Position numbers and translations under genes: made by a program. The notes under the pieces were generated by a model. It saw only the letters and a list, made by a program, of their open reading frames with translations. It made no database searches and was not told the DNA's origin. A stretch of DNA of 46,641 nt, from IMG/VR virus record IMGVR_UViG_3300007775_000004, positions 1-46,641 of that record, one strand, 5' to 3'. Source of the DNA: a virus. Below, piece after piece: positions 1-22,895 of this stretch. Every line of letters begins with the position of its first letter. Position 1 is the stretch's first letter.

Positions 1-123
1 ACGATGAACACGCTGGTAATCGGTACGTCAGCCGGGATTTTCGCCTTAATGACCTGCGTCAGCGGCATAATCAAGCCAGCCGATACGATGGGCCAAAGTG
101 AATTGAAGAAAGTTGAAGGGTCC
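1..123. repeat. Terminal direct repeat (left copy), circular closure
   Basis: Bases 1-123 are identical to 46519-46641. The repeat is a short exact end overlap of the kind an assembler leaves on a circular or circularly permuted genome. The holin-like gene reads intact across the joined ends, which supports real circularity rather than a chance repeat. A genuine 123-bp terminal repeat in the virion is possible but cannot be told apart from the sequence alone. Confidence 0.95.
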
Positions 124-125
124 AT
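1..125 (-). CDS. Holin-like small membrane protein, N-terminal part (continues at 46518 across the junction)
   Basis: On the minus strand an ATG at 125-123 follows a GGAGGT ribosome binding site (131-136) and opens a frame that runs off the left end. It continues in frame at the right end to the stop at 46356, giving a 95-aa protein on the closed circle. This segment encodes the first ~41 residues: a hydrophobic start (MDPSTFFNSLWPIVSAGL), then a basic stretch, then the beginning of the membrane segment. See the entry at 46356-46641 for the rest. Confidence 0.75.
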   Translation of the reverse strand, partial: MDPSTFFNSLWPIVSAGLIMPLTQVIKAKIPADVPITSVFI

Positions 126-127
126 TT

Positions 128-439
128 TTACCTCCGATTTTTGATCTTTGCAGACCAAGTTTCCGCATCATCCCGGACCTTCGGGTTAATACTCTTGAAG
201 TTATTCAAGTGACCGAATAAAAGATGACAGCGGCGTTTTCTACATAACGAAATTAAATTGTTTGGGTCAAGCTCAAGTTCCGGGTGTTCGCTAAAGTCCT
301 CAACGTGATGTACTTCAACCCCCTTCTTCGATCCGCATACCTCGCAATACGGGTGTTTTTTTATGTGGGCCTTGCGAACCTTGCGCCAACCACGGCTCCG
401 GGTCAGTGGCTTTACAACGTGCTCACGAATAAAGCTCAT
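128..439 (-). CDS. HNH endonuclease
   Basis: Small HNH nuclease of 103 aa. The sequence shows a CEVCG knuckle, the HHV core of the motif, the Asn-containing DPNNLISLC helix and a final CH pair, i.e. the usual Cys-Cys-His-His-Asn-Cys-His order of an HNH/ββα-metal domain. The start at 439 was chosen because ATG overlaps the stop of the upstream membrane-protein gene as ATGA and follows a GAGGT site; a longer frame from 523 would overlap that gene by 88 bp. It lies inside the lysis region rather than next to the terminase, so it may be a free-standing homing-type nuclease or serve packaging; the sequence does not decide. Confidence 0.8.
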   Translation of the reverse strand: MSFIREHVVKPLTRSRGWRKVRKAHIKKHPYCEVCGSKKGVEVHHVEDFSEHPELELDPNNLISLCRKRRCHLLFGHLNNFKSINPKVRDDAETWSAKIKNRR

Positions 440-606
440 ACATACCTCAACGTCAAAGTGATCCCCACCAAACAACATCCAGCCAGGTACGCTGACTCCC
501 ACCCTTGGCCGATAATACCGCATAGCCCCAGCACAACACCTGCCGCAAACCCAAGCACCAATATCCAGCGTCTAATCTGGCGTTTATACCAACCGATTTG
601 TCTCAT
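436..606 (-). CDS. Small membrane protein, possible holin or spanin component
   Basis: A 56-aa protein with a basic N-terminus (RQIGWYKRQIRR) followed by two hydrophobic segments (about residues 13-30 and 38-54), as in a small two-pass membrane protein. ATG at 606 overlaps the endolysin stop as ATGA, and its own stop overlaps the HNH start as ATGA, so it sits in a translationally coupled chain. Position straight after the endolysin suggests a holin or other lysis membrane protein, but there is no diagnostic motif. A second holin candidate is the 95-aa gene two positions downstream. Confidence 0.65.
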   Translation of the reverse strand: MRQIGWYKRQIRRWILVLGFAAGVVLGLCGIIGQGWESAYLAGCCLVGITLTLRYV

Positions 607-1007
607 ACAATCTCCCCAACCTGATGAATCCGGGGAACTCCACAATGCAAGTGGTTCCCTTCAAACTGGATGTAAAGCAACCCGTTCCAGATCAGGGCAA
701 AGCGGGACTGATACTGCTGTCGAAAAGAGGTTTCCATATCTCTGGTCCGTTTATCAACCGCATAGACGATGAAGCTGTCTTGAGCTTTACGAACCAAGTG
801 ACCGGAATACTGATAGCCGTTGACCGCCTCGTTCTCTGTTCGGGTCCGCAAAACAGATGTAATAACCGTTTTGTACCCCTCTTTCTGCCACCAATACAGA
901 GCGTTTTCCATAACTGCCGCTCGACATATCGGGTCCAGAAAGGTAAAGAACTCTTTTGACAACCTCTCCTGCTGGTTATCGTCTTCGTCAAATCCAAGAT
1001 ATTCCAT
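603..1007 (-). CDS. M15-type peptidase endolysin
   Basis: Likely cleaves peptidoglycan cross-links at the end of infection as a zinc-dependent L,D- or D,D-peptidase. The 134-aa protein shows the M15/VanY pattern S68-G-H70...A75-x-D77, and near the C-terminus E116-x-x-H119-x-H121 within EGNHLHCG. H70, D77 and H119 would bind zinc and E116 would be the general base. It has no signal peptide, so a holin or other export route is needed. The gene lies between an exported protein gene (stop 4 bp upstream) and a small membrane-protein gene (ATGA overlap), a typical lysis cassette. The ribosome binding site is weak. The assignment rests on motif spacing and context. Confidence 0.75.
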   Translation of the reverse strand: MEYLGFDEDDNQQERLSKEFFTFLDPICRAAVMENALYWWQKEGYKTVITSVLRTRTENEAVNGYQYSGHLVRKAQDSFIVYAVDKRTRDMETSFRQQYQSRFALIWNGLLYIQFEGNHLHCGVPRIHQVGEIV

Positions 1008-1010
1008 AAT

Positions 1011-1700
1011 TTACCAATACAGTTTGTAAGTGGTTGAATCTGGGACAGTAAACGGCACTCCCTTGATCCTCTCACCCTCGTTAGTAATGATTTCAATATC
1101 ATATTTCTTGTCCCCCAGGCAACTTGACCAGACCAGATCGGCTTGGAAATACCCTTTCCAGTTAGCCCCACCGGATCGTTCGGTTGGCGGACCCTCGACC
1201 GTCTTGGTCACCATGATGGTACTATCACAGGAGCAGTTTCCTTTTGGGGCCGTAAAGACCACCTTAGCGTATTCAAGGGAGTCGCCGTCAGCACCTCTGG
1301 CAGTCCCATAAACCCGACAAACATAACTCCCACCCGGTACGCCAGCAGGGGTTGAAGATGTCCACCCCCACACAATCTCATCTCCGGCGTAGCTCGAATC
1401 GGCCCCGGCAGGTTCCCAAAACTTCCAGTATGCAAGCCGCCAATGATTTCCGTCATCGATCACGACGTTGCCAGTAAACGGGAAGGTGGCGATACTATCT
1501 GAGGGGATCGTATCATAAGCGACATTGTTTTTGTATGAAATGATCTTCACCCCGAAAAGCCCCTCATCGTCAGGGAAATACACTGGCCGGTAGGCCGTCC
1601 CCGCCCTTGCGCTGGACACCAGCACCGTCAGTACCACCCCGGCAATAAACAGAACCAGAGCCAACGGAACCCATTTGGGGGAGTCGTCAAATATCTTCAT
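1011..1700 (-). CDS. Exported hypothetical protein of the tail/fibre block
   Basis: A 229-aa protein with an N-terminal hydrophobic stretch (about residues 11-32) ending SSARA|G, a plausible signal peptidase I site. The mature part is beta-rich, with several Cys (GNCSCDS, a CLGDKK segment) and Trp-rich segments (WKFWEPAGAD), and resembles an immunoglobulin-like or fibre accessory domain. ATG overlaps the stop of the upstream beta-helix gene as ATGA. I do not recognise a family. It is the last gene before the endolysin; a surface or fibre-tip role is inferred from context only. Confidence 0.7.
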   Translation of the reverse strand: MKIFDDSPKWVPLALVLFIAGVVLTVLVSSARAGTAYRPVYFPDDEGLFGVKIISYKNNVAYDTIPSDSIATFPFTGNVVIDDGNHWRLAYWKFWEPAGADSSYAGDEIVWGWTSSTPAGVPGGSYVCRVYGTARGADGDSLEYAKVVFTAPKGNCSCDSTIMVTKTVEGPPTERSGGANWKGYFQADLVWSSCLGDKKYDIEIITNEGERIKGVPFTVPDSTTYKLYW

Positions 1701-3364
1701 TGTATCTCTACCTTTCCATTGTTATGCGTACTGCCGTTTATCAAAACTGTCGTTGTGTCAGAAGCGGCGGCGGATGGCTGGACCGCACCGTAGAGCGTCC
1801 ATGTACGCCCACCATAAGTCACATTCATTTCTGAGCTTGCGCCCGATCTCGCAAGTCCCAACCAGTAGTTAGATGCGCTCACGCTGTCGAACCCCGGGTC
1901 AGAAAAAGTCGAGTGTACATCTTGCAGGCTATCGTTGATCCACGTCGCCGAATCAGTAGTGGTGCTGTTGATATTAACCGTAAACGCTACATCGGGTTCG
2001 TAGATGATATTGTAATCGAAGGTGAAGTTATCCTCAGAGCCGTTGACTAAAATGTATGGGTAAGAGTTCCACGTTGGATCGTAAATGATATTATACATAA
2101 ACTTAGACCCACCAACTACGTCGGAGCCATACCCGACAAACGTCTCCGCTCCGCTATAAATGAAGGTGTTATTCCCATAGAACATATTGCCAATGTTGGA
2201 AGCATCGCTTGCAAGGTCGTTAAAACTAAGAGACCGGTTGGGGTTTGTATAGAAGATATTCCCGTAGGTGCTGTCGTAGTTGTTATTCTTGTACCACTGA
2301 ACCGCGTGCTGCCCAATGTCGGAATCAAAGATACAGAACCTAACGACCGAGGCAGAATCTCTGCCGTTTGTAACTTGATAGGCTTCCTTAAAATAGATAG
2401 CGTCCGACTGAGCGTGGTTAAAGTAGCAACTATCAAACACCACCCTTGATTGGCTGTAGATATCGGCCAACCTTCCATCCCCGGTCCCCACGGCAACATC
2501 GTATCCGTAGGTTAAGCTATCACGTTTTACAAGGTGGTTGCCTCCCCAATCATCGTCATCGGCGAAGCCACGTTCGCTCGAATGAATCACGCCACCGTTC
2601 CCCGCCGCAGATGATGAGACTCCACGGGACATCTTACAGTCTATCCACTTGCTGTCATTAAACTGCGATCCCCACACCACAACGCCGGGAGCGCCAATCC
2701 TGAAGTCCAATCCCTGTACATAGATGAAGTCATAATCAACCCCACCACCATATCTGGTGTTGATCGCAGAGTTACGGGATGCATATACGTCATAGCTATT
2801 AGGGTCAACCCCGCCAGGTAAGTAGACGAAAACCGAGTCCCCACTCTCCGAGTAAAAACACTCGCCTTCCGAAAGCGACCGACTACCAGATGGCTTCAAC
2901 AGGCTATCGGTCGATCCCCACGTAACACATATCAGCCCGGAAGACACCGGTCCCCACCGTGGGACGGTTGCGCTGTCAACCCCCGAAAGAGCGTAGATTG
3001 ATCCAGAAACTACGCCCCACGTTCCAGACAGAAGAGTCGCCCCTGTAATAATCGGGTAGGCCGGGGTATATGACACCCCCTCGCCGGGCCAGAGCGAATC
3101 TACAAAGTAAGTATAGCCGCATGTGTCGCAAAACTTTGGTCTGTCGTAGACAGGCGGGGTTATCGACACCTGCGTATATCTGGCGGAGCTACTGAAACGG
3201 TTTGTATCACCATGAGATACATAGGCGTTCAGGCTGTCAATGGTGAATCGATCAGCCCATGAAGTTCCGTCTGCCGAACCAGCATTGGTCGGGCCTACGT
3301 AGTTGGTCGTCGCCCCGGCGTTCACCGCCAGCAGAATAAATAGTATGGTTGCTAAATGTCTCAC
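1697..3364 (-). CDS. Exported parallel beta-helix protein (tail spike/fibre candidate)
   Basis: 555 aa from a GTG start at 3364, chosen because GTG overlaps the TGA of the upstream gene (GTGA) and because the frame then opens with a signal peptide, RHLATILFILLAVNAGA|TT. The mature start (TNYVGPTNAGSADGTSWAD) matches the usual beginning of right-handed beta-helix/pectate-lyase-like proteins. The body has repeated short strands with Asn and Asp turns (e.g. FDYNIIYEPD, MFYGNNTFIY), as in a beta-helix of the spike/depolymerase type. A catalytic pair cannot be assigned. Function as a receptor-binding spike or polysaccharide-degrading protein is inferred from fold and neighbours. Confidence 0.75.
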   Translation of the reverse strand: MRHLATILFILLAVNAGATTNYVGPTNAGSADGTSWADRFTIDSLNAYVSHGDTNRFSSSARYTQVSITPPVYDRPKFCDTCGYTYFVDSLWPGEGVSYTPAYPIITGATLLSGTWGVVSGSIYALSGVDSATVPRWGPVSSGLICVTWGSTDSLLKPSGSRSLSEGECFYSESGDSVFVYLPGGVDPNSYDVYASRNSAINTRYGGGVDYDFIYVQGLDFRIGAPGVVVWGSQFNDSKWIDCKMSRGVSSSAAGNGGVIHSSERGFADDDDWGGNHLVKRDSLTYGYDVAVGTGDGRLADIYSQSRVVFDSCYFNHAQSDAIYFKEAYQVTNGRDSASVVRFCIFDSDIGQHAVQWYKNNNYDSTYGNIFYTNPNRSLSFNDLASDASNIGNMFYGNNTFIYSGAETFVGYGSDVVGGSKFMYNIIYDPTWNSYPYILVNGSEDNFTFDYNIIYEPDVAFTVNINSTTTDSATWINDSLQDVHSTFSDPGFDSVSASNYWLGLARSGASSEMNVTYGGRTWTLYGAVQPSAAASDTTTVLINGSTHNNGKVEIQ

Positions 3365-5106
3365 TTTGTCCCTCTGACTGTAACGCCCCTGCGATAGACG
3401 CCCCCGTTGCGGAAAATCGGACCTTGTGGAGGCGTCCAGTTGAGAGCATACCAACTGGTCTTAAATTCGGACACGCCAATTACACCACAATTTAAATCGC
3501 CCAAAGAATCGTACGACGAATCAAGGGGGTACCAGTAGGTGAATACACTAACAAATTTAGTTGTATCTAAGTGATTATCAGGGGCACTTGCGACTACCAT
3601 GTTATCTGTGAACATATTTGGTGATTGAGCCGACGCCCCCGAAGTACCGGCACTCAAACTCTTCATTGTCCCCACCCAATATCTCGTTCCTTTGGTCATA
3701 ACAATCGGGGGGCTGAACGGCAATAGCCTATATCGGGGTATTTTATCTCCCAGCATACCAACCGTGTCCCTAAAAAGAACTGTTTGGATGACCGTCTCCG
3801 GAGTAGTCAGGGTATCACAATCAGCCCATAGGCCGTAATAGAAACACGCCGAATCGCTGGGCCACGTTGCGTTTGATTTAACCCAAGCCGTCATCCCGTC
3901 AAGAGTCGAGCCAGTCGGCCCGTTCCACACAAAAGATTCCCATTGACCCCCTTCTGGCACTGCTCCATAAGAATATAGAGGCCGCCTTGCAGTATTGAAC
4001 GGAACGGTGATTTCAATTGGATATGTGATGGTATCAAGCGACGCCGAATCAAGTGTCATTCGCAGTCCATAACTGAAGACATTGAAACGGAGGGTATCAA
4101 AAGCGGCATTCAAAGAATCCCCAGCGGAGTTAGTTACATATAGACCCTGAGCACGCCCAAAAACAGCATCATCGTTTCCCGTGCCACAAATGCGACCACT
4201 ATAATACTCTATACTGTCACCAAGTACGGTGGTGTAGTTTTTCTGGATTGTCTCTCCGACCTTAGCCTTCAGATAAACCGCCATCGTGTTGGTTTCGCCC
4301 GTTGATATATACCATGCGTTAGTAATATCCACCCCGTCATAGGAGGTAGTGAAGGTGTCCGCCCAAAACTCTCCACCACTCAGATCAGGCTTAGAGTCTA
4401 TTATCTGCTTCCACAGAAAGAGTGTATCGTCGATCTTTTGGAAACTATTGGTCCGGGACATATCTAAACTGACCCGCCATGACGCCTTGCCCTCGAAGGC
4501 GTTAAAGGTAAACGCTGAGTCGTGGTCAAATAGTATATTTAAATACCGAGAATGAAGGCCCGAAGTAGTAACGGGGAGAGAATAGGTCACCTCAATCCAT
4601 AGATAATCAATATCAAGGGAGGCGCCGAGACCAAGGTCGGCCTCTCCGTCTATAAGCACTTGAATTGAATCAACCGATTCCATCCCCCATGAATGTCCTG
4701 ATGGAGGCATGAGCGTATCATAATGCACAGTGCTTGTTGATCTTGTTGGGCCATGGGTAGTGTCGTTGCCAATGATGACATTAATGCGGCATCCGGAGCT
4801 ATCGCCATCTGTCTGAGTTGCTTTGTACTCCCATATAATAACAACTTCGTCAACCGTCGCCCCGGCCCCATAGAAAGCGTATGCTCCCCCTAAATCTTCC
4901 ACCTCAAACAGATGCTGTTCTGTTCCGTCATCACCCAAAAGATGCTGTAAGGATAATTTAATGTTGTCATTATACCACAAATCAGAGGTGGCCGAGTCGC
5001 CAGCAGCCAACCAATCAGCGGGGGAACCTTCGGCGTTGACCCTCAACGTATCTTTGTAACCGAACGCAAGGGTTGGAAAGAGCAGGATAAAAATTAACCA
5101 CCTCAT
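3361..5106 (-). CDS. Exported fibre-like protein with beta-sandwich domains
   Basis: 581 aa from ATG at 5106, which shares a base with the TAA of the upstream gene (TAATG); this start gives a clean signal peptide, MRWLIFILLFPTLAFG|YKD. The first ~190 mature residues (…DSIQVLIDGEADLG…DIDYLWIEVTYS) resemble the mature 185-aa neighbour (…DSFRVLVEGNGTAF…KVDHVQIEAWYT), so the two seem to share a duplicated beta-sandwich domain. The remainder is Asp/Ser/Thr-rich beta structure. No enzyme motif is seen. It is probably part of the fibre or spike set; the exact role is unknown. Confidence 0.7.
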   Translation of the reverse strand: MRWLIFILLFPTLAFGYKDTLRVNAEGSPADWLAAGDSATSDLWYNDNIKLSLQHLLGDDGTEQHLFEVEDLGGAYAFYGAGATVDEVVIIWEYKATQTDGDSSGCRINVIIGNDTTHGPTRSTSTVHYDTLMPPSGHSWGMESVDSIQVLIDGEADLGLGASLDIDYLWIEVTYSLPVTTSGLHSRYLNILFDHDSAFTFNAFEGKASWRVSLDMSRTNSFQKIDDTLFLWKQIIDSKPDLSGGEFWADTFTTSYDGVDITNAWYISTGETNTMAVYLKAKVGETIQKNYTTVLGDSIEYYSGRICGTGNDDAVFGRAQGLYVTNSAGDSLNAAFDTLRFNVFSYGLRMTLDSASLDTITYPIEITVPFNTARRPLYSYGAVPEGGQWESFVWNGPTGSTLDGMTAWVKSNATWPSDSACFYYGLWADCDTLTTPETVIQTVLFRDTVGMLGDKIPRYRLLPFSPPIVMTKGTRYWVGTMKSLSAGTSGASAQSPNMFTDNMVVASAPDNHLDTTKFVSVFTYWYPLDSSYDSLGDLNCGVIGVSEFKTSWYALNWTPPQGPIFRNGGVYRRGVTVRGTK

Positions 5107-5663
5107 TAGTAGCTCCTGACCCGTATAACTTGTCCGTGTGACCCACCCGCAACAGTGTACCAAGCCTCAATCTGCACATGGTCGACCTTTATTGTACCTA
5201 CCAGCCCGGCATCCGCCCTAATTCTAACTGCCGTTGTGCCATTGTTTAGATCAGTTTCATCAAACCCCGTTCCCCACAGGCCATTAGTTGTCCCGCTTGC
5301 TATAACAACGGCATCAGTATTACGTGGTAGCCCAATGGTAACCGTGTCACCATACGAGGTCCCGCCCTGAGAAAACCAGACATTGATATCTCTTTGACCG
5401 CCCACAAAAGCCGTTCCATTCCCTTCAACCAAAACCCTGAATGAGTCAAGAGATGTTAGGGAAAACGAATACCCGGAGTCGGCCATGACCGTACTCGCAC
5501 TGGTAGTGGTTGCCCTGATATTGTCAGAAGTAAAAATGCTGTCGCACGAGGTCCATGAACCAGTCAGAAAACAAACCGATCCCGATGAACTGTCGGCCGT
5601 CTCACCACTTCCATAAACGACCGACGCCAACAGTAAAAGACTAATCGTTACCAAGTATTTCAT
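5106..5663 (-). CDS. Exported small beta-sandwich protein, fibre block
   Basis: A 185-aa protein starting MKYLVTISLLLLASVVYG|SGE, a textbook signal peptide. The mature part is Ser/Thr/Asp-rich and ends with a domain similar to the N-terminal domain of the next gene (581 aa). Its start lies 23 bp inside the end of the 1219-aa spike gene and its stop touches the next ATG, so it is translated as part of the coupled chain. Function unknown; a fibre accessory or decoration role is inferred from similarity and position. Confidence 0.7.
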   Translation of the reverse strand: MKYLVTISLLLLASVVYGSGETADSSSGSVCFLTGSWTSCDSIFTSDNIRATTTSASTVMADSGYSFSLTSLDSFRVLVEGNGTAFVGGQRDINVWFSQGGTSYGDTVTIGLPRNTDAVVIASGTTNGLWGTGFDETDLNNGTTAVRIRADAGLVGTIKVDHVQIEAWYTVAGGSHGQVIRVRSY

Positions 5664-8600
5664 ATCGTATCCATATGTCTGCCCGACCTTGGTCGGTGCT
5701 TGGGAGTATGATTGCTATTATATTAGCATATTCAATAGTGTGGTCCACTCCATCCGCCACATTATCAAAGGCATTGGTGGGAACCGTCACGGTTGCTATC
5801 GACGATTCCGTCCCCGCCCCCACATCACGGTCAGTCCACTCTTGAAACACAACAGCATAAGTTCCTATTGAATCATTGACCCCAACCCCGATAGAGTCAA
5901 TGGTGATTCCTCCGGGAGCAAACCCCCTGATTGGCAACAAAACAGTATCACACACAAGGTTGTCCGGATCGTCAATCGTCAGCATGAACGTATGGTACCG
6001 CTCGGCCATGATAAAGGAACTGGACCCGTCAGATGACTCAAGCATATCGTCATCTGAGTCCCACTTTAATTCTCCCTCCACAGTAGTGCTTGGATTAACT
6101 GAGGTTGGCAATACAAGCTGTACCCCTACCACGATGTGCTCTGAATTAAGGCTGTCAAGATCAAGGGTATCCCCTACGGCAGTTCCAAAATCAAGCTGGT
6201 CGATGACGTCAATCCCATCCGGGAAATTCACTTGGCCCCCCGATTCGCCACCGTCAAGCACCAATGTCCCCGATGGATCACGCATAATCGAACTGTCATT
6301 CACAAGGTCGTGTTTGTATTGCAGGGTAGTATCACCAGACGTTATGAGGCTGAACACGGCAGAGTCGGTGCCGTAAAGAGAACTATCAAAAAGACCAACC
6401 CCACCGCCACCACCAAATAGGCCCGTCGTGTCTGTCGCCGTTGCGACATTGCTACCGTTGCCCACCCAAATATACCCATCTGCGAGAGTGGTTTTTAATC
6501 GAGTACCGAAAATAGTCGACAACGGAACCTCGGTGGTATCGACCTGAAGTTGGTTGCTGGAGATTTTCAGACCCGGACCGTCAAACAGGCTAAGGGTGTC
6601 TTGTGCGTCAATCCCGCCCTCCTGAGTAGTCAGCGTCCCGAATATCTTAGAGCCTCTCCATAGTGGCATATAGAATCTAGAGGACTGGAGTATGGACGCC
6701 GAATCGACCGCTCCATTGGCAAGCTCGGAGGCTCCCACGGAATTGGCCGATAGGGTTGTACTGTCGTGGGCATGACTGTTGTCCTCAACCGCCCAAGCAC
6801 CGCCAACTATTGAGATGTCACCAATATCTTCGTTGGCAAAATCCGATGGCCCTATCTGCTGTGCGCCCGTCCCGATATCAAGCTCTGATTCCCCGATGGC
6901 ATTGGCTACGATCTTTGTTGAGTCAACCGAGTTGGCGTCCATCTCGGCCAGAGCAATGCTGGCCCCGAGGGTAGCCGCTATGTAGGCCGTATCAATGTCA
7001 ACCGTGAGGTCTATACCAGCCCCCTCCCTGATGTTTGTCGGGTAGGTATAGGCGAATACCCCACCACCGGAAGTGTCCCATGCGACAGAATCATTGGTTC
7101 CACTCCCGCCACCGTACCAACTACCCGGAAATGGGAAGGATTCATCGGTGGTAAGTGTGTCTGGAATAGTGATAGTCACCGATCCACCGCCACCACCGGA
7201 GCTTGTATACAAGATCACCTGTCCAGAATCAGCCCCGGTAGACGTAAACGATGTCCCCACCACAGAGTCCGGGATCGCTATCGCAGAGTCAGCCAGCGTA
7301 GCGTGACCAGCGTTCGAGACAACTACACCGGTCGTGTCAATCATTGAATCGACTATCGAGTTGTCAGGGAAGTTGGCGGTCCCCTCATCAAAGATAAATT
7401 CCTCAATAGTTACCGTTTCCCCCGTCCCGGTTGTTGGTGGGTCGGCTTGGATATTTACGGAAGCACCACTCCCCCACGCCCTAATGCCGATGGTGTCGCC
7501 GTTCTGGGCTATGATATTCCAATATCCCGACCCGCCCCCGTTCGTCTGTACCGTCCCTCGGCCGGGCCTAATGTGCAGCGAGGTGGTTCCTTTTAGACTA
7601 TCGGCGTAGAGGGCATTAACGCCAGTGATATCGAAATCATTCATCGTCATCGGTCCCAACAGATCAAGAGTGTCCTGTACCTGAGTAGGAGACTTGATAA
7701 CTGTCCATTCGTTATCGGGGGTAAGCGTAGATGAGTCTGTATCGTTCGCACCCGTAAACCCAGTCAGCCCCCCACCTCCACCGCTCGTATCATGCCAGAT
7801 AGTATCGCCCGGAGTGACCCATCGGCTTGACCCCGTAGAGTCCGTTAGCTTGAAATAAACGCTGTCAACCGATCCACTACCGGCCGCATTGTTAGGGAAG
7901 GACCGAAGGGTATTGTCTCTCGTTGTGTCGTCGCCGTACAGTAACCCGGTAATGTTAATAAGCCGGATAGAGTCTTGTGGGGCGGTAAAGCCTGATCGTT
8001 TTTGGTAGATAATCATGCTGTCGCCGTCACTAAAGCCCGATGTGGTATCGTAAGCCCATATCCGCTCATTCTGCACCAGCACGTCATACGAGTCCCAGAT
8101 GGCAATAGCGGCATCCATGCCCGTAACGTACCCCTTGTTCCAATAATACTCATTGCCGTCCATCGTAGATTGCGCCCACTGAAAGACCTGAACCTGATAG
8201 TCGGACCCGTTGTTAAGAGTATCGTTGTCTATAAACTTACAGTTAGTAATCGAGTTAAAACGGGATATCTGGCTGGAGTCGGCAGCTGTATTCCAAAGGA
8301 ACCTGATTGCCTCTTCGCCGTTGTTATAGATCGTGCAGTTGTCGATATCAACCCCAGAACCGTTGACATAAATCCCGGTAGAGTTGTTGGAGAAAATGTC
8401 CACCCCGATAATCTTCACCCCAAGACTGTCCTCGTAGTGATCCGGGTTGATATCAATACCGTTGTGGGTTGGATGACCCCAGATTGCGCCACCCCTAATG
8501 GTCAGCCGATAGCCACCAGCAGGCGGTCCGTCCCCCGAGTTTTGCAGAAGAACCCCCGAATGGCCGTTTGAAGTCGAAGAGGTGTCCCCCTCAAGGTAGC

Positions 8601-9910: not shown

Positions 9911-9918
9911 ATGATCCC

Positions 9919-14115: not shown

Positions 14116-15080
14116 TACTGAATCAATCCTGCATTCCAGCGTTTAACGAACTCTTTATATTCAGCATCTTTGTACGATCCGTCATTGGGTGGTGGCGCAG
14201 AAGGCGCAGTGGATTGAGTTGAGCTTTCCCGGATACGCTCTTTTTTCTGCTCGGGAGTCAGATTGTCCCAATCATCGTATATCGCCCGGCCCATTGCATC
14301 CTGTTCGGCGGTGTACCCCCTCTGTTTGTCCGCCGGATCTGGTATCTGGAAGTCAAGGGGAGAACTTGGGTGCATCTCCTGCATATACGGGCTGATATCA
14401 AAGGTGCCCCCGGTCTGTATCATATTGGCTATCTCGCTTACAGGAAGTCCTGAGTAGGCCATGATGGTGTCAAGGGAGGCAGATGCCGTTAGATCGGCAT
14501 AGTCGCCAACCTGTCCCTCTCGGGCGAAATCTTCTGAATTGACAAACGATTGTAGAGTAGCGGGGTCATCTGATAAATCACGGTTAATAACCAGATCATT
14601 AAACGCATCTGGATTGATTGAAGCCAGCCTGCCCTTAACTCTGTTAGTCAAGCGGTTGATGTTTTGGGTCCGTAAATCCAGCCCCTGAAGTCTGGCCTGA
14701 GCGTCAGATAGAGACGGTTTTTCTTCTTCAGGCGTTTCATCAAGCGACCGCCGGGCTTTTTTTATTTGCAGTGTCTTTAATTCACGGTTTAGGTCACTTG
14801 TCTCTTGATCGTCTCTGAACCTTAGGGCTTTTAGCCACCTATCGGTGGTATCCTGCGACAGTTGTTCAGCGTCAGACTTGCGCTTATCGGCCCTGTCCTG
14901 TTGATCCAGAGAATACTGAATCTGTTGGTACATCTGATTCAGATTGTCTTTGCTGGTCTTGCTGGCCCGATCTTCATCCTCAAGCCGTCGCCGACGCTTG
15001 ATTTCTTCCATGACCGGAAGCAACTCACCGATTCTCGATGCCGCACTGCCTAATGCCTGTCCAAAACGACTATAAGCCAT
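14115..15080 (-). CDS. Internal virion protein candidate, coiled coil
   Basis: 321 aa, no signal peptide. Residues about 20-140 are strongly charged and heptad-like (EEIKRRRRLEDEDRASK, NRELKTLQIKKARRS). The C-terminal part is acidic with a Pro/Ser linker (STAPSAPPPNDG) and a final helix. It is followed immediately by the giant internal protein gene (TAATG junction) and preceded by a 123-aa Ala-rich protein, an order like the T7/P22 ejection-protein module. Assigned by composition and place, not by a recognised family. Confidence 0.6.
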   Translation of the reverse strand: MAYSRFGQALGSAASRIGELLPVMEEIKRRRRLEDEDRASKTSKDNLNQMYQQIQYSLDQQDRADKRKSDAEQLSQDTTDRWLKALRFRDDQETSDLNRELKTLQIKKARRSLDETPEEEKPSLSDAQARLQGLDLRTQNINRLTNRVKGRLASINPDAFNDLVINRDLSDDPATLQSFVNSEDFAREGQVGDYADLTASASLDTIMAYSGLPVSEIANMIQTGGTFDISPYMQEMHPSSPLDFQIPDPADKQRGYTAEQDAMGRAIYDDWDNLTPEQKKERIRESSTQSTAPSAPPPNDGSYKDAEYKEFVKRWNAGLIQ

Positions 15081-15083
15081 AAC

Positions 15084-15455
15084 CTACCCCAGACTCGCCA
15101 GCGAGCGAGCAATGTTAAAGTCCCTGTCTGATTTAGCCATATCGGCCTGAATACTCGTACCCAGAGTGAACTTTCTTTCTGACTCTAACAGCCCGCTTAA
15201 CAGAGCGTTCTGCCCCCGACCGGTATCAAATCCGTACCGCCTATTCACCGATTCCCCAAGTCGATTGATCTCGGGTATCTGATTTGCCCGGTTACGGGCA
15301 ACCGCCTGATCGACGTTAATTACCGGCTTACCGGAGAGAGACATCAGCCGTCTGGCCCCCTCTTTCTTGTATTTCTCGTAAGGATCACCACCGAAAAGAG
15401 CCTGGAGAAACGCCCCACCGCCTTGTAATCCCAATGTTAAAGCATCTGAAGCCAT
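15084..15455 (-). CDS. Small internal virion protein candidate
   Basis: 123 aa. An N-terminal Gly/Ala/Leu segment (LTLGLQGGGAFLQALFGG) could insert in a membrane; the rest is helical with polar residues (NRLGESVNRRYGFDTGRG). This resembles small ejection proteins such as T7 gp14, which form an outer-membrane channel, and lies directly after the nozzle gene in the same module. Similarity is by pattern only. Confidence 0.55.
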   Translation of the reverse strand: MASDALTLGLQGGGAFLQALFGGDPYEKYKKEGARRLMSLSGKPVINVDQAVARNRANQIPEINRLGESVNRRYGFDTGRGQNALLSGLLESERKFTLGTSIQADMAKSDRDFNIARSLASLG

Positions 15456-15458
15456 AAT

Positions 15459-18400
15459 CTATTCTCCCTTAAAGTGTCCGGCCTGTCGGTTGACCGTGAA
15501 ATCCATCATGTTTATCTCGGTATTGCTCTGAATACCAGAGCTATATAGTTCTATCTGAAAATACTGCAATGGCGACCGATTCCCGTAATTCTTGAGAATA
15601 TACGCCTCTGAAGCCAGTGAAGGAAAGACAACCGAATCACTTACAGACCCGGTTTCGTCATAAATCCTCGCTACGATAGTCGAATCATTCCCGTCTGTTG
15701 ACGTGACCCACAGTCCGATATCAATGATCTGATCCAACCGTCGATCTGCCCCGAACACACCTGATCGCCACGTTACCGGGATCGCAGTACCGTTGTCTGA
15801 GTTGGAAGTCCCGTACCGGTAGAGATTCGGGTCATCCTCTTTGTAGAAATACATAGTCTTGCCGGGAATGAAGTTTAGAGCATCTTCGGTATCGTAGAGA
15901 GTCGCTCCCTTGAACGGCATTGACCATGTAGCCCATGCGCCCGTCTTTTCAAAGAACGCCCAGGTTGTATCGCCCAAACTAAACAGAGCGGTCTGATCCG
16001 TAGGCAGGTAAAACCCAACCATATCCGATAGATCGCTGATTGTCCGGTCATCGAAGTCGTTCAACTGACCCGAGAGCGGTTTACTGAGGATCGTTCGGTC
16101 AAGGTAAAGTCCTTCTGATTCGCCCTCTATCCCTCTGGTACTCAGGAAGTAACGATCCGCCCCCTTGATACTGGAATAAGGGGCAATACACCCCCAACCA
16201 TCATTGATCTCGGTCTTGGTGTACTCGCTGAACGTGTTCCACGAGGTGAAGTTTTTCTTGACCCTTATCCCGCCCCGGAACGGGTAGGCAGTGGTAATGC
16301 GATCCCCATCGTCGTTGTTGACGGGAGTGAAGTCCCAGAACCCCCACTTGGTAGCGGAATCGACCTGTGATCGGTAGAGCAGGGAACCGTCTGTGCCAAA
16401 CAGATACCCGTCGTATGAGAATATCCGGCTCAACCTCGCTGGTGGGTCAGTCTGGGTGTACGCCCGGCGCAGTTCCAGTGTGTCATACCGCATGGAATCA
16501 ACATAGATAGTATCAGCCGCCGGTATCTGTGCCACAAGGAACGGATAGAGCAGAATCGTCGTATCGACTGAGTATGTTGGGTCTATCCAGACATATCTAT
16601 TCCATAGGTCTCGTTTCCACGGGGTTCCAAATAACCATGTGTTAAAATACTTCTTCGCCGTAATCTTGTTATGCTGGCTTTTGAATAAATCGGATTGATC
16701 GTTGTACCAGGCACTAAATGCGCTATCATAATTCCCGTCATATCCGGGCGTAAACTGTCCAACCTGATAGACCATTGATCGATATAGATTATAGACTATC
16801 CCGCTATCGTCCGGTGGCAGAGGCGGGAGTCCGATAGTAAGAGCGTAGAACTTATTGGCATTGTCGGCATCGTTGTAAATCACGCACCATTCGGACAATG
16901 GCCCCTCATTCCCAGTCAGCGTATCTATCGGCGCAATGGCATAAGCAAATCCAAGTGTGTCCTTTTGCGGGGGGATACCACACCAGATACCCCAGTCTAT
17001 GTTAGCCGACCACCCGGTATCGTTGGCGGCATAGGCCGTATCACCAAACCAAGCCGAATCATTGGCCCCGACCGAATCTGGCGTAAGCCCTGACACAAAC
17101 CCGGGTGCCCCCGGTCTCCGGGTCAGCACACCGGTTGAATCTCTCCCCGCCCAGACGGTGTCCAATGCCAGAACACCGGTTCCGTCCCGGTTAGCCAACG
17201 CCGTATCCGATAGACTGTCGATCAGGACCACATCCGCCAGAGATGTAAACTTGTTTGTGTCATCTACCCCGGCGGCGTTCTGCACCATGCAACTGTCTTC
17301 TGCGGTAATCTTCACATAGATATTCGTGCTATACAGCCTCATCGACTCATCAAGCCGACCTGGATTAGAGGTCGTACGGTAAACCAGATATACCAAAGTG
17401 TCACCGCTCGGGATAATCGTCGAGTCAACCAACGAATCTACCGGGTGCATGGCAAAATTACGCAGTAAAAACCGTCCGTTCTTGGTCTTGACTGGGGCCG
17501 ACACCGGCCCGAGTAAGCCGATGTTGTAGACATTAGACCCACCACGCTTGTAGAGATGCCGGAGTGCATACCGCACCTCGCCATCTATCACATAATCCTC
17601 ATCTTCCCCGGACTGTCGGCTGATCGGAGTAATCAATGGTTCCCCGAAAGCCGCCAGAGGATATGAATGGGCTATTTCACCGTTCCAGACCACCCCCCGT
17701 TGGTCCCCGTTGACCATATAAACATTGTCGTTGAACATGGCGAATGAGGTCGGGTTCTGGGTTGACCAGTAAGGCCAAATCTTTGAAGGCGGGCCGGACG
17801 ATACCGCCCATTGCGTTACGTCAGCAAAGGCAAAACGGAAAGATATATCAAGGTAAAAGCTGTCCTCTACAATCTTGACAGTGGTGTCGCCTGAGTTAGT
17901 AGCTGTCAACCACGGACCCGCCGCGCCGTTGATCCAGTTGACAATAGTATCACACCACCACTTGACAGTTGTGTCGGCATCGTCAACTGAGATCGATAAA
18001 ACCCAAGTCGAGTCTCTATAAATGATTGTATCTGTATAAGTAAGCGTATCACAAAAAGCAGGCACCTCAGACCCCGATAAAGTAAAGCACTTGCCAGACA
18101 AAATAGACGCAGTATCGGGGGTCACGTGCAGACTATCGTAGGTCTCTACCCCGAAGTCATGCCGTCCCATCTCAGAGGCGTAAATTGCCCCGTACCCTAC
18201 ACCGGTTGAATCAACCGCCGCCATCAACTGCTGTTCACCCCAAGAGTAGTACGCCCCGTACAGTCCAACAAAGTTATCCATACCGGGGAAAACAAAGACC
18301 GAATCGTACCCTAAGCGAGCCCTGAACGATCCATCAGACAGGTCAAGATTATGGACGATTGTCCCGGCACCCGATGGTAAATAGAACTTGTTAAGCGAAG

Positions 18401-18518
18401 TGACAAGCCCCGCCTTGAAGTCACGTACCATGCCCGTATCTACCTGCGATTGCGGGACTTGCGCCCGGCAGGCGGTAGCGAGTAAGATCAGGATTGATAT
18501 TTTAATTACAGTTCGCAC
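15459..18518 (-). CDS. Tail nozzle / stabilisation protein with an N-terminal signal peptide
   Basis: 1019 aa from GTG 18518 (a TTG at 18524 is the alternative). After a hydrophobic start ending LLATACRA|QV come the features of a podovirus nozzle/stabilisation protein: RDFKAGLVTSLNKFYLPSGA, then a conserved N-HNLDLSDGSFRARLGY segment, then a beta-propeller-like body rich in Trp and Asp. Such proteins cap the podovirus tail and control DNA release. The canonical fold starts after the signal peptide, so the leader is an addition; LLATAC could also be a lipobox. There is no good Shine-Dalgarno, and the start lies inside one arm of a 15-bp inverted repeat (see findings). Confidence 0.75.
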   Translation of the reverse strand: MRTVIKISILILLATACRAQVPQSQVDTGMVRDFKAGLVTSLNKFYLPSGAGTIVHNLDLSDGSFRARLGYDSVFVFPGMDNFVGLYGAYYSWGEQQLMAAVDSTGVGYGAIYASEMGRHDFGVETYDSLHVTPDTASILSGKCFTLSGSEVPAFCDTLTYTDTIIYRDSTWVLSISVDDADTTVKWWCDTIVNWINGAAGPWLTATNSGDTTVKIVEDSFYLDISFRFAFADVTQWAVSSGPPSKIWPYWSTQNPTSFAMFNDNVYMVNGDQRGVVWNGEIAHSYPLAAFGEPLITPISRQSGEDEDYVIDGEVRYALRHLYKRGGSNVYNIGLLGPVSAPVKTKNGRFLLRNFAMHPVDSLVDSTIIPSGDTLVYLVYRTTSNPGRLDESMRLYSTNIYVKITAEDSCMVQNAAGVDDTNKFTSLADVVLIDSLSDTALANRDGTGVLALDTVWAGRDSTGVLTRRPGAPGFVSGLTPDSVGANDSAWFGDTAYAANDTGWSANIDWGIWCGIPPQKDTLGFAYAIAPIDTLTGNEGPLSEWCVIYNDADNANKFYALTIGLPPLPPDDSGIVYNLYRSMVYQVGQFTPGYDGNYDSAFSAWYNDQSDLFKSQHNKITAKKYFNTWLFGTPWKRDLWNRYVWIDPTYSVDTTILLYPFLVAQIPAADTIYVDSMRYDTLELRRAYTQTDPPARLSRIFSYDGYLFGTDGSLLYRSQVDSATKWGFWDFTPVNNDDGDRITTAYPFRGGIRVKKNFTSWNTFSEYTKTEINDGWGCIAPYSSIKGADRYFLSTRGIEGESEGLYLDRTILSKPLSGQLNDFDDRTISDLSDMVGFYLPTDQTALFSLGDTTWAFFEKTGAWATWSMPFKGATLYDTEDALNFIPGKTMYFYKEDDPNLYRYGTSNSDNGTAIPVTWRSGVFGADRRLDQIIDIGLWVTSTDGNDSTIVARIYDETGSVSDSVVFPSLASEAYILKNYGNRSPLQYFQIELYSSGIQSNTEINMMDFTVNRQAGHFKGE

Positions 18519-18523
18519 AGTCA
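18509..18523. repeat. 15-bp inverted repeat, left arm
   Basis: CAGTTCGCACAGTCA; its reverse complement TGACTGTGCGAACTG is at 18860-18874. The arm covers the GTG start of the nozzle gene. Confidence 0.8.
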
Positions 18524-18535
18524 AATCATCTTAGG

Positions 18536-18838: not shown

Positions 18839-18859
18839 CTGACTAACTCTCTTTCTATC

Positions 18860-18874
18860 TGACTGTGCGAACTG
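18860..18874. repeat. 15-bp inverted repeat, right arm
   Basis: TGACTGTGCGAACTG, the reverse complement of 18509-18523. It lies in the gap between the 87-aa and 100-aa genes. Confidence 0.8.
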
Positions 18875-18881
18875 ACTGCTT

Positions 18882-19145
18882 TCATTTTATGTCCAAATCA
18901 TACCGCTCAATTATTGAGCATATGGGGATACAAATATCACCTAATCCCTGCTGTATTATGTCATCTTTTTGAGTCTCGGAATACTTGCTTTGAACAACTA
19001 TTATCTGGCCCTCTGTCTCTGCAACCAAGTATCCCAGGGTCTCAATAATCAGGGGTTTACATCTGTCCCTGATATAGTCCACGTTAGACCACCCGTGCCC
19101 AGAGTGTGAGTCTACCCAGATTACAAGAACGGGCTTAATCTTCAT
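18882..19145 (-). CDS. Small hypothetical protein
   Basis: 87 aa, MKIKPVLVIWVDSHSGHGW..., with an alpha/beta look (VLVIWVDS strand-turn, then a helix, then QIIVVQSKYSETQKDDI). Its start overlaps the end of the exported connector gene by 11 bp. No family recognised. It sits with the 100-aa gene as an extra pair between connector and nozzle. Confidence 0.55.
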   Translation of the reverse strand: MKIKPVLVIWVDSHSGHGWSNVDYIRDRCKPLIIETLGYLVAETEGQIIVVQSKYSETQKDDIIQQGLGDICIPICSIIERYDLDIK

Positions 19146-19836
19146 CTTTAATCATCCCTTTCTCGTACTCTCTCATCCAATACTCTGCCGCACCGAAGTT
19201 AAACCGCATGGCGTACAGTTTTGAAGCCGCAAACATGATAACCTTATCAAGGTATTTCGCCCTGATCTTCAAAGCACTATCCGGCGTCGCTAAATGAGTG
19301 GTGTCCAGAGCGTAGTATTCAATCAGGACATTCGCTGTGTCGCCACCTCGTGACCACTTGGGGGATAAAATCAGTTTCCCACCATGAACATCCCAATAAT
19401 TGATACTCAGCTTATCCGCCAGCGTCATTAACCATTGTAGATTGCTCTGACGGCTCAAAAAAGCGGTGTCTTGCGGCCACATTTGCAGGGGAAGCCGCAG
19501 GACTTCATTCTTTTTCGTGTCCTCGACCATCAAAAAGACCGAGTTTGGACCCCTCAACCGCACGAAATCAGCCGGTAGTGCACCCCCCTCGGACGCACTA
19601 TCGACTAAAACCGTGTCGAACCGCTCATAGGCCGGGAAATCCTGACAAGTAGCCCTGACGCCCCACGACAACGCACGAAACATGGCCGTAGTGTCGATAT
19701 AGAGGTCTCCGGTAGCCTCCAACTGGCCCCAGTCCGCAAGCTGTTGCATCAGGGAGTCACGTTTGGGGCTTAATGTCTGGCAATAACTGTCAGTAACCAG
19801 CATTAACAGGAGTATGATTATCAGTTTTTTCATCAC
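19135..19836 (-). CDS. Connector/adaptor protein with a signal peptide
   Basis: 233 aa. The N-terminus MKKLIIILLLMLVTDSYC|QTL is a clear signal peptide with Gln at +1. The mature part (PADFVRLRGPNSVFLMVED, LILSPKWSRGG, VLIEYYALD, then a C-terminal helix with ALKIRAKYLDKVIMFAASKLY) has the beta-plus-helix pattern of podovirus head-to-tail adaptor or tail-tube-A-like proteins that check column widths of the portal. The ATG overlaps the previous gene (ATGA). An exported version of a head-tail connector protein is surprising and is treated in the findings. Confidence 0.65.
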   Translation of the reverse strand: MMKKLIIILLLMLVTDSYCQTLSPKRDSLMQQLADWGQLEATGDLYIDTTAMFRALSWGVRATCQDFPAYERFDTVLVDSASEGGALPADFVRLRGPNSVFLMVEDTKKNEVLRLPLQMWPQDTAFLSRQSNLQWLMTLADKLSINYWDVHGGKLILSPKWSRGGDTANVLIEYYALDTTHLATPDSALKIRAKYLDKVIMFAASKLYAMRFNFGAAEYWMREYEKGMIKDED

Positions 19837-20519
19837 CGGTTCCCGTATCCGTACATTTTTGATCTCGCATTGTTCTGGTTCACTATATGAGGAGCCATCT
19901 TGGCTATGTCGGTATCGGCCCCGCCCTTATCATACCGCTTGATCGTATCGACCAAAGCGGCGGTGTACAGACCAAGGCTGATATCAGGTAACAGTCGCCG
20001 AGCAAGTGAAATGGTCAAGAACCAGTCAAAATCAGAGGTAAAATCATTCAACTGGATATCGTTTCGCCAGAAATCATAAGTAATCAACGTCCCTGTTTCT
20101 GAGGGAGTAGCGACTATTCTGACCTTGGGGAACCTATCTTCTTTGCCCGCAGGAACCCAGAACGCCACATCGCTGATAGTATACCTTGTTTCCAGGTCAT
20201 CCATGACCGACTTGGTTTTCTTGGTCAACAGCATTTTTGCAGTACCATACCTGACTGAAGCGATCTGGTAGGCGTTATTATCGTCGCCTTTCAGCGTATA
20301 GGTCGAAGTGTCTGCGGTCGTGGTGGTAGATGTCTCCTTCATAGCGAAGTCCCACTCATGCGCCCCACCAACCTCCAGCACCACGCTTGGCACTTGTGCC
20401 TTCAGGCGGTTTTCTAATTCCTCCACGGTTATCCCAAGCCCGCCCTTATCAGTAGGAAGGGCGAGCCTGCGGATAGCTGGCAGAGCAACGACTGCTTGTA
20501 CCAGTTCAGTCGGGGTCAT
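19833..20519 (-). CDS. Head-tail adaptor protein
   Basis: 228 aa, no signal peptide. A helical N-terminus (TPTELVQAVVALPAIRRLALP) is followed by beta strands (ADTSTYTLKGDDNNAYQIASVRYG, VAFWVPAGKEDRFPKVRIVATPSETG, LITYDFWRN) and a C-terminal helical pair (LARRLLPDISLGLYTAALVDTI). This arrangement is that of podovirus/siphovirus adaptor proteins that fit under the portal. The gene lies in the capsid-connector block directly before the exported connector. Confidence 0.65.
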   Translation of the reverse strand: MTPTELVQAVVALPAIRRLALPTDKGGLGITVEELENRLKAQVPSVVLEVGGAHEWDFAMKETSTTTTADTSTYTLKGDDNNAYQIASVRYGTAKMLLTKKTKSVMDDLETRYTISDVAFWVPAGKEDRFPKVRIVATPSETGTLITYDFWRNDIQLNDFTSDFDWFLTISLARRLLPDISLGLYTAALVDTIKRYDKGGADTDIAKMAPHIVNQNNARSKMYGYGNR

Positions 20520-20522
20520 CGG

Positions 20523-20885: not shown

Positions 20886-20903
20886 ACGTTCTCCTTTGTT
20901 TCA

Positions 20904-20923
20904 GGGGCGAGTTTCCCCGCCCC
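20904..20923 (-). other. GC-rich hairpin between two late genes
   Basis: GGGGCG (20904-20909) pairs with CGCCCC (20918-20923). On the minus-strand transcript it lies between the stop of the 264-aa gene and the ribosome binding site of the 120-aa gene, with no following T run. It may act as an mRNA processing/stability hairpin, or be a weak attenuator. Confidence 0.5.
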
Positions 20924-20940
20924 ATCGTTAAAACAAGCCG

Positions 20941-21735
20941 TTACCACGGCGTTTCAGTTATCATCTTCGAGCCATCGACGTAAGCCGATTTCCCCAAGAC
21001 ATTGAAGGTTGCGATATCGTCATAAGTCGTGGCCGCACTGACCCGACCAACGATACGATAACCCTTGGGTGCCTGAAGGTACGGGACGAACGGGTTCGCC
21101 GCCCCAATCTCTTCAAGGGTATCGTCAGCCATGACACGGGTATGAGCGGTCTGGACCGCCTCAGACGCTTCCTGACCTTCAAAGTAGAAAGCGATCTGGG
21201 GACTTCCACCGGTCAACCCGACGTTAATCGAGGCCGTCAGGAGAGTATTCCAACAGACTCCTTTTTCCTTGAAATGTCCACCCTTACCATAGTTATCGAA
21301 CCGTTCACCGGAGATGGCAAACGAACCGTGGTCAGTAGCAGACGCATCAAAGTAAATCGGCAGACCCTTAGCCGTAAGGCAACTGGTGGCCCCTGCCGTC
21401 AAGAGCTTGGACGCTGAAGCGTCCGCCCGCAGACCGGCATGAAGGATACACCGCCAGGCTTTCTGGCCGTTGATATAGTCCCTCACCGCCCCAAGGGTTG
21501 TGTAGGTAGCAAAAGCCACCACCCCCGAAGCACCGATAGCATCGTCCCCAGCAGGGGCCGCGCCATCGACAGTGAAGGTTATATTAGACGCCGATGTTAC
21601 CGCCGCCGTAGCCGCCGTCCCGCCTGTCCCCTCGGAGGGGACGTACTGGACGATCAACGCAACGTGCGTATCGACATCAGAGAATGACTGACCGTATGGA
21701 CGGGCAATCATCTCCTGTTCCAAATGAGAATGCAT
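20941..21735 (-). CDS. Capsid-region structural protein
   Basis: 264 aa, no signal peptide. Composition is Ala/Gly/Thr-rich with beta-strand stretches (NITFTVDGAAPAGDDAIGASGVVAFATYTTLG, SPQIAFYFEG) and it ends in a compact domain. It follows the capsid gene and an exported capsid-adjacent protein. A decoration, capsid-stabilising or fibre-like role is possible; I do not recognise the family. Confidence 0.6.
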   Translation of the reverse strand: MHSHLEQEMIARPYGQSFSDVDTHVALIVQYVPSEGTGGTAATAAVTSASNITFTVDGAAPAGDDAIGASGVVAFATYTTLGAVRDYINGQKAWRCILHAGLRADASASKLLTAGATSCLTAKGLPIYFDASATDHGSFAISGERFDNYGKGGHFKEKGVCWNTLLTASINVGLTGGSPQIAFYFEGQEASEAVQTAHTRVMADDTLEEIGAANPFVPYLQAPKGYRIVGRVSAATTYDDIATFNVLGKSAYVDGSKMITETPW

Positions 21736-21746
21736 ATTATCGACTC

Positions 21747-22895
21747 CTATTGTTCGTAAATGTTCAGATCAATCTGCATATCGTAAGACGGCCAGAACGT
21801 AGTGTCGCTGGTACTGTCTCCGATGTAATAGACAATAGAAATAACATCCTTGAACAGCGTATCAACCCCGGCGGAATCACGGGGAATTGCAACATGAAGG
21901 CTCCCCGGAAGAGCCGACATAATTGCGCTGTCCAGAAGGAAATACTGTCCATTAGTGGACTGATCTCTAAACACGGTATATAACCAGACAATGGCGGAAT
22001 CATCCTTGCCTATCCCGCCGTCACCGGTATCGGTTGATGCTTTAAGGATAATCGTCCCGTACAATCCCCCGGCATGGCCTTGTCCGCCATGAAGTCCGAC
22101 GATGTTCGGGATGGTATCCGTATGAGTTGACCGACTAGTGGCGTTAGCTGTAACCGTGGCGGTGTCAAGAGACGAATCCGCAACATCGAGGGTAAATGTC
22201 ACCCCCTTTTTGTCGGAAGTAACGAGGATTATACTATCCCCCCCGTTGGCCGCAGTAACCACACCACTCACGCTATCGGTTCCATTGAATGCCGCCGCTA
22301 ACGAATCACACACCATAGCAAGGGTCGTTACGGTCGAATCCCCCTTGCTGAGCGAGTCTCCGAGAATCAGGGTCCAACGAGCATCGTTCAACATCCGCTC
22401 TTGCTTGAAAAGGGACGTTACTTTGATGTAGGTTCCTGAATCAACGGCCACAACACTATCGCCAAATCCGCTTACGTTATTGATTGAGTCAACCAATTCC
22501 GCAATTAGATTCGCCAGGGTGTCGTCAATACCGGCGATATCATAGTCAAAGCCAACGGTATCACCGTCCGCCCCTGCCTGATATGCGATATCAATGGAAT
22601 AAGTGAGTGCAGTATCAACGACAGAAGCCACATTGATTCGCATAACCTGAAGAGGCGAGACCCATGCTACGGCACTATCAGCACCGAGCCCAGACCCGTA
22701 CCCCTCAAGATCAAGGCTGTAAACAAACGAATCAATAGCCGTGAACTTATTCAGCTTCATGACCAGGGCCGTATCACCAGCATCGGTAATCGGTAAATAT
22801 GCGGTTTTCGTCGTGTGAACGGGAGTTGCCGCATAGAGCACAACTGCCAGCACACTCAAGAAAACTAACGGGATAAGTGACTTACCTCTTACCAT
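21747..22895 (-). CDS. Exported protein beside the capsid gene
   Basis: 382 aa, good AAGGGGG ribosome binding site, N-terminus MVRGKSLIPLVFLSVLAVVLYA|ATP, a typical signal peptide. The mature part is Asp/Ser/Thr-rich beta structure with repeat-like spacing (DAGDTALVMKLNKFTAIDSFVYSL and similar), and it contains few Cys. Phages usually put decoration or minor head proteins in this place. It is the signal-peptide protein closest to the capsid gene; whether it is a virion component or a secreted helper is unknown. Confidence 0.6.
   Translation of the reverse strand: MVRGKSLIPLVFLSVLAVVLYAATPVHTTKTAYLPITDAGDTALVMKLNKFTAIDSFVYSLDLEGYGSGLGADSAVAWVSPLQVMRINVASVVDTALTYSIDIAYQAGADGDTVGFDYDIAGIDDTLANLIAELVDSINNVSGFGDSVVAVDSGTYIKVTSLFKQERMLNDARWTLILGDSLSKGDSTVTTLAMVCDSLAAAFNGTDSVSGVVTAANGGDSIILVTSDKKGVTFTLDVADSSLDTATVTANATSRSTHTDTIPNIVGLHGGQGHAGGLYGTIILKASTDTGDGGIGKDDSAIVWLYTVFRDQSTNGQYFLLDSAIMSALPGSLHVAIPRDSAGVDTLFKDVISIVYYIGDSTSDTTFWPSYDMQIDLNIYEQ

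Follow-up and report, generated by a model that had tools for sequence, protein, structure and literature searches.

The window analyzed here, all 46,641 nucleotides of virus record IMGVR_UViG_3300007775_000004, is a 46.6-kb record of the short-tailed-phage type. Its outer-tail proteins, among them the tail adaptor, the nozzle and a fiber, begin with Sec signal peptides (leaders; SP+), while the proteins of the head and its interior do not (SP−). The leadered proteins are also strongly enriched in the motif D-(S/T)-(A/I/L/V/M/T), hereafter the sequon, which marks periplasmic O-glycosylation in Bacteroidota and is confined to non-cytoplasmic proteins (PMC12871550, PMC8550257). Both features recur in two highly diverged phages. 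Judged from these sequence features, export of the outer tail before assembly, and probably its glycosylation, is well supported, and we consider it probable that a Sec-exported, likely glycosylated outer tail is joined to a head made in the cytoplasm.

Leaders were called with a heuristic scorer based on n-region charge, h-region and the residues at −3/−1, with ten E. coli secretory proteins as controls. Nine late proteins scored 11.6–15.9, in the range of the controls (10.0–15.1), and all were found where the initial annotation had placed them. By this scorer they have the charged n-region, hydrophobic core and small −3/−1 residues of the Sec/signal peptidase I layout. They are a 382-aa candidate surface or appendage protein adjoining the capsid gene (21747..22895; MVRGKSLIPLVFLSVLAVVLYA|ATP, score 14.3), the 233-aa adaptor (19135..19836; MMKKLIIILLLMLVTDSYC|QTL), the 1021-aa (or 1019-aa) nozzle (15459..18524), a 102-aa protein (9297..9605; score 15.9), a 1219-aa fiber or tailspike (5641..9300; ...AVSALA|QPG, score 15.1), a 185-aa protein (5106..5663) and three fiber-region proteins of 581 aa (3361..5106), 555 aa (1697..3364) and 229 aa (1011..1700). 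All lie on the minus strand, as do the other late genes, which begin at 29.7 kb and extend to the left end. The remaining late proteins scored at most 7.4. These include the large terminase (27638..29191), the portal (25293..27140), the scaffold (24098..24913), the major capsid protein (22907..24070), a 228-aa neck protein and the internal or ejection-type proteins of 123 aa (15084..15455), 321 aa (14115..15080) and 1398 aa (9919..14115), as the initial annotation had noted. The ejection genes sit between the leadered nozzle and fiber genes, so the split tracks place in the particle, outer tail versus head and interior, rather than gene order.

Leadered open reading frames (ORFs) made up 9/26 in the late region against 1/33 in the early region. 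In phages sharing only the terminase type they numbered 19/1361 even with the most favorable start allowed (Fisher p = 3e-10). The idea that leaders are common to all phages with this terminase, or to those of Bacteroidota, was rejected: they are rare in these relatives, and the virion proteins of Cellulophaga phage phi14:2 and structural-region proteins of crAss001 that were scored are without them. Of the glutamines at +1 annotated in several leadered proteins, the one in the 1219-aa protein is unambiguous, while those of the 233-aa protein (following Cys) and the 1021-aa protein (CRA|Q) are likely; this amounts to only two to three of the nine.

The two further phages have diverged so far that most of their tail proteins fail to match those of the window by BLAST, yet order and split are kept. 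The closest terminase relative (40–44% identical) lies on contig IMGVR_UViG_3300025087_000800 (L011) and was reached through a terminase alignment with actinophage relatives. Downstream (L180), its gene order is nearly that of the window: a 212-aa neck protein without a leader precedes leadered proteins of 237 and 895 aa, followed by leaderless proteins of 149, 291 and 1435 aa and then by leadered proteins of 571 and 341 aa. The 1398-aa ejection-type protein of the window is 37% identical to the 1435-aa protein, and the 1219-aa fiber matches the leadered 571-aa fiber (fib571, E=1.3e-6). The third phage, G004 (IMGVR_UViG_3300038950_000002; loci L185, L196, L197), was reached via the conserved C-terminus of its ejection protein (L196), which is 61% identical to that of the window in the matched stretch. 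Its terminase does not match the window terminase, yet the split is repeated. Leaders are found on its adaptor (223 aa), nozzle (790 aa), a 202-aa protein, two portal-adjoining proteins, a 111-aa protein and five fiber-region proteins, and are missing from terminase, portal, scaffold, capsid, a 232-aa neck protein and the ejection-region proteins of 285, 532, 260 and 1214 aa. Conservation of the same leaders and split in both phages indicates that the leaders are not mis-called starts. As both contigs are linear records, some of either genome may be missing. Because the ejection protein of G004 is so similar while its terminase is unmatched, the packaging and ejection modules are, by sequence comparison, strongly mosaic between G004 and the window phage. 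Queries with the portal, terminase, 228-aa and 233-aa proteins against viral contigs returned no close relative, and tblastn searches of public phages with the nozzle and the adaptor gave no match.

The 228-aa protein (19833..20519) had been taken for the adaptor; profile searches move this role to the leadered 233-aa protein, encoded just upstream of the nozzle, and leave the 228-aa protein as another, leaderless neck protein whose slot is kept in the relatives (ad212 and p232, which match each other at E=6e-6). A hidden Markov model (HMM) of 35 SP-less adaptors detected the G004 adaptor (ad223) at 1.1e-10, the 233-aa protein at 0.0026 and the protein of the L011 phage at 0.013, and the reciprocal HMM of this leadered trio, whose pairwise identity is only about 20–25%, found SP-less adaptors at 1e-9 to 2e-5. 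When aligned with the leadered ones, leaderless adaptors start at the end of the leader. A mixed adaptor profile matched solved tail adaptors by sequence; the three-member SP+ profile alone matched none, and an earlier hhalign comparison of adaptors with a poorly aligned mixed set gave no signal, HMM iteration being used instead. An AlphaFold model built from 29 sequences, SP-less adaptors included, reached a predicted local distance difference test (pLDDT) score of 75, compared with 32 for a two-sequence model. Foldseek aligned it with tail chains of Pa223, GP4, KHP30, SU10, crAss001 and T7 (best E=5e-8, template modeling score about 0.5). By profile and predicted fold, the 233-aa protein is a T7-gp11-type tail adaptor.

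For the nozzle, a profile was grown from a leaderless relative and 90 leaderless homologs were collected. The resulting HMM matched the G004 nozzle (noz790) at 1.8e-23, that of the L011 phage (noz895) at 4e-14 and the 1021-aa protein at 0.0012; both orthologs are SP+. Residues 34–111 and 697–871 of the window nozzle align with the SP-less model, and when the window and L011 nozzles were compared with five leaderless ones by hhalign, the result was 94.1% with E=1.3e-7. The canonical N-terminus of the family (model positions 4–82), including its N-terminal motif, corresponds to residues 34–111 and thus begins directly after the leader, just as the initial annotation had proposed.

The sequon provides a second, independent mark. 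Compared with composition-preserving shuffles, SP+ proteins are enriched about 4–5-fold, with ratios of 4.8, 4.3 and 3.9 in the window, the L011 phage and G004, respectively; SP− ratios are 0.8–1.1. In the window, SP+ proteins contain 131 sequons against 27.4 in shuffles (z 20.7) and SP− proteins 13 against 15.5 (z −0.7). The corresponding values are 54 against 12.5 (z 11.9) and 11 against 10.4 (z 0.2) in the L011 phage, and 92 against 23.6 (z 15.3) and 9 against 10.9 (z −0.6) in G004. The reversed motif and the controls E[ST]x, N[ST]x and D[GN]x showed no excess. After D[ST], one of A/I/L/V/M/T follows in 77, 67 and 75% of cases in the three phages (expected 38–40%), with a residue ranking at this third position similar to that of published glycoproteomes (PMC12871550). 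The SP+ sets thus have the profile of Bacteroidota O-glycosylation substrates, predicted non-cytoplasmic and D(S/T)(AILVMT)-enriched. Individual proteins follow the same pattern, with 20 forward versus 3 reversed sequons in the 382-aa protein, 35 versus 4 in the 1219-aa protein and no enrichment in the 1398-aa ejection-type protein (1 versus 6). No excess was seen in SP-less homologs: the 90 nozzles contain 148 sequons in forward and 185 in reversed form, the 35 adaptors 41 and 53. The 18 virion proteins of phi14:2 proven by mass spectrometry (43 versus 48) and 14 structural-region proteins of crAss001 (30 versus 28) were equally flat, and none of them carries a leader. Leader and sequon mark nearly identical protein sets in the three genomes, with small or weak exceptions such as the G004 adaptor, with two sequons, and a leadered 160-aa protein of G004, with none. 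A leadered 142-aa ORF in the early region (43937..44365, plus strand; ...ASTVLG|QVD), which the initial annotation did not list, is visibly rich in DTI/DTV/DTA, suggesting that the motif marks the exported proteins of this phage generally, beyond virion parts.

From these features we infer the following route. The adaptor, the nozzle, the fibers (or spikes) and one or two surface proteins whose genes adjoin those of the head would be made as Sec precursors and cross the inner membrane, where signal peptidase I would remove the leader. In the periplasm, the mature tail proteins would then most likely be O-glycosylated by the host machinery that recognizes D-(S/T)-(A/I/L/V/M/T). Head assembly and filling would take place in the cytoplasm, to which capsid, portal, scaffold, the first neck protein, terminase and ejection proteins would be confined. 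The halves may join as the inner membrane is breached or afterwards, when the portal-neck of a filled head would dock onto an adaptor-nozzle-fiber tail assembled beforehand; that they meet at lysis is a guess. The stricter version, a two-compartment lineage whose DNA-filled cytoplasmic heads and host-glycosylated periplasmic tails join only when the inner membrane fails, so that the receptor-binding end is dressed in host sugars before release, strikes us as somewhat better than an even bet. The earlier reading of the leader as an export signal added to tail and fiber proteins gains from the two diverged relatives, from leaderless homologs that start after it and from the restriction of the sequon excess to leadered proteins. 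Homologs starting after the leader had been named as a finding that would speak against it, and such homologs do exist among distant relatives; since both close relatives carry the leader, they rather point to its gain. Export before assembly, suggested at the same time, would follow from periplasmic glycosylation, provided that glycosylation, itself deduced from the sequon, really occurs.

Other explanations of the leaders were weighed against this export route. The main rival holds that they are uncleaved or late-cleaved anchors that tether adaptor, nozzle and fibers to the inner membrane on its periplasmic side, with heads docking at the envelope. Leader and sequon data also fit tethering, some leaders are as long as transmembrane anchors (the G004 nozzle, p111) and the path from head to tail would shorten. 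However, the signal peptidase I sites of most leaders look good (small residues at −3/−1, several with +1 Gln), and a tethered virion would need to house a hydrophobic helix on every adaptor and nozzle subunit; we regard tethering as unlikely. A role away from the virion, such as receptor masking, coating of the cell surface or competition between phages, finds some support in P. gingivalis prophages, whose leadered Q-rule proteins, of unknown function, may alter the surface of the host (PMC10367356). Virions would then use leaderless isoforms from internal starts, an idea that inspection of ribosome-binding sites did not support: downstream of the leaders, plausible site-backed starts were found only in the 229-aa gene, as GTGs. 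Nor did profile searches of the window and the G004 late proteins find a second, leaderless adaptor or nozzle. Because of these two results the exported copies are probably the virion ones, and as adaptor and nozzle have no obvious use away from a head, we judge an off-virion role improbable.

The leaders could also be hydrophobic pro-peptides for assembly, with the D(S/T)x richness stemming from β-structure, metal binding or another cause. This is compatible with the localization of the leadered proteins being a prediction, but it fits poorly with the three-part Sec layout and with an excess that depends on D preceding S/T and on a small or hydrophobic residue following it, is flat for E, N and reversed motifs, and is absent from SP-less homologs of the same fold and from the fibers of crAss001 and phi14:2. 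We hold it to be very improbable. An artefact of wrong starts, host genes or a chimeric assembly finds some encouragement in the TTG start codon of the window nozzle, which lacks a clear ribosome-binding site; three separate contigs sharing the compact late operon and the split make this scarcely credible.

Several observations weigh against the export of a glycosylated tail. The lineage is known from sequence, with no cultured member, and the leader calls come from a heuristic. Export itself creates the problem of how a tail meets a cytoplasmic head, for which the sequence shows no docking mechanism. The leadered proteins of one small Bacteroides plasmid show no sequon excess (10 versus 8), and by this flat control the sequon strength seen here is unusual even for Bacteroidota. 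Finally, Gln at +1 occurs in more than 48% of leadered proteins in 332/334 Bacteroidetes species (PMC5837995) and in only about 8–9/28 of those counted here. This falls below the usual Bacteroidota frequency, so the host may belong to Fibrobacterota or another phylum of the FCB (Fibrobacterota–Chlorobiota–Bacteroidota) type. Sequon enrichment, found mainly in Bacteroidota, is similar in Fibrobacterota (PMC12871550). A genome-contig scan returned Clostridia-type metagenome-assembled genomes (MAGs) and one Streptomyces contig and indicated no host. An apparent leadered nozzle match in L169, a Clostridia MAG contig on which it is encoded by the opposite strand, was taken as a host protein and discarded.

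In the textbook view, tailed phages assemble in the cytoplasm and finish at lysis. Adaptor and nozzle families and gene order resemble those of the T7 (gp11/gp12), SU10, GP4, KHP30, Pa223 and phiCrAss001 tails, which the adaptor model also matches, but the SP-less short-tailed relatives examined have neither leader nor sequon excess. Filamentous phages (inoviruses) likewise make their virion proteins as Sec precursors. They assemble and extrude through the membrane without a filled head, whereas here the leaders are on the outer tail and the window encodes terminase and portal homologs and a gene in capsid position. Known Bacteroidota O-glycosylation substrates share the sequon in non-cytoplasmic proteins but are host proteins (PMC12871550, PMC8550257), and the literature searched yielded no substrate among phage virion proteins. 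The initial annotation knew of no tailed phage with this split, and the open-licence papers searched likewise yielded none with exported or host-glycosylated tail parts. Nearest are the P. gingivalis prophages, whose leadered proteins, some with +1 Gln as here, are mostly of unknown function or are spanins and a capsid protein presumably cut by a prohead protease, without a tail set (PMC10367356). If our reading is true, a membrane separates tail joining from DNA packaging and lysis becomes an assembly step; receptor-binding proteins would bear host glycans, which could change adsorption and recognition. Leader plus D(S/T)x excess would further serve as a sequence test applicable to all viral genomes, both finding such phages and placing their hosts.

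In full, the late order of the window reads terminases, 111 aa, portal, 127 aa, scaffold, capsid, 382, 264, 120, 228, 233, 100, 1021, 123, 321, 1398, 102, 102, 1219, 185, 581, 555 and 229 aa, followed by an M15-type peptidase (weak Pfam match) and an HNH-like protein. Several of these names rest on position only: the capsid protein was assigned from position and the scaffold from position and composition, and the portal, homologous to that of G004, has a weak, below cut-off match to Pfam SU10_portal. The leadered 185-aa and 581-aa proteins (3361–5663) are paralogs (E=1.6e-7), and the 229-aa protein weakly matches f660 of G004 (E=5e-5).

Leadered, sequon-rich proteins also occur among the head genes of all three phages: the 382-aa protein at 21747–22895 in the window, a 167-aa protein between portal and scaffold at L011 7736–8239 and two ORFs between terminase and portal in G004 (L196). 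They have no detectable similarity to one another and could be head-surface or receptor-binding proteins. The second leadered ORF beyond the initial list, a 161-aa protein not assigned to the virion (45878..46363, minus strand; ...ITMKA|QEP), has a counterpart of about 160 aa in G004 (L185 19773–20255), both near the end of the late region. The pair shares a leader, Gln at +1 and a lack of sequons; the window protein had no Pfam match and the counterpart no PHROGs match. To judge from reading their sequences, they are possibly small outer-membrane β-barrels. In the L011 phage, a methyltransferase-like gene (L180 2724–3239, minus strand; 171 aa) lies between a small membrane protein and the fiber genes. 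A more distant phage, G005 (contig IMGVR_UViG_3300025853_000005; L188 13967–18131), has leaders mainly in the fiber region, its other late proteins are leaderless and it shows no sequon excess. Its 793-aa leadered tailspike contains a pectate-lyase-type β-helix (Pfam E=1.5e-13), and G005 is possibly an independent, partial case of leadered fibers in a different host.

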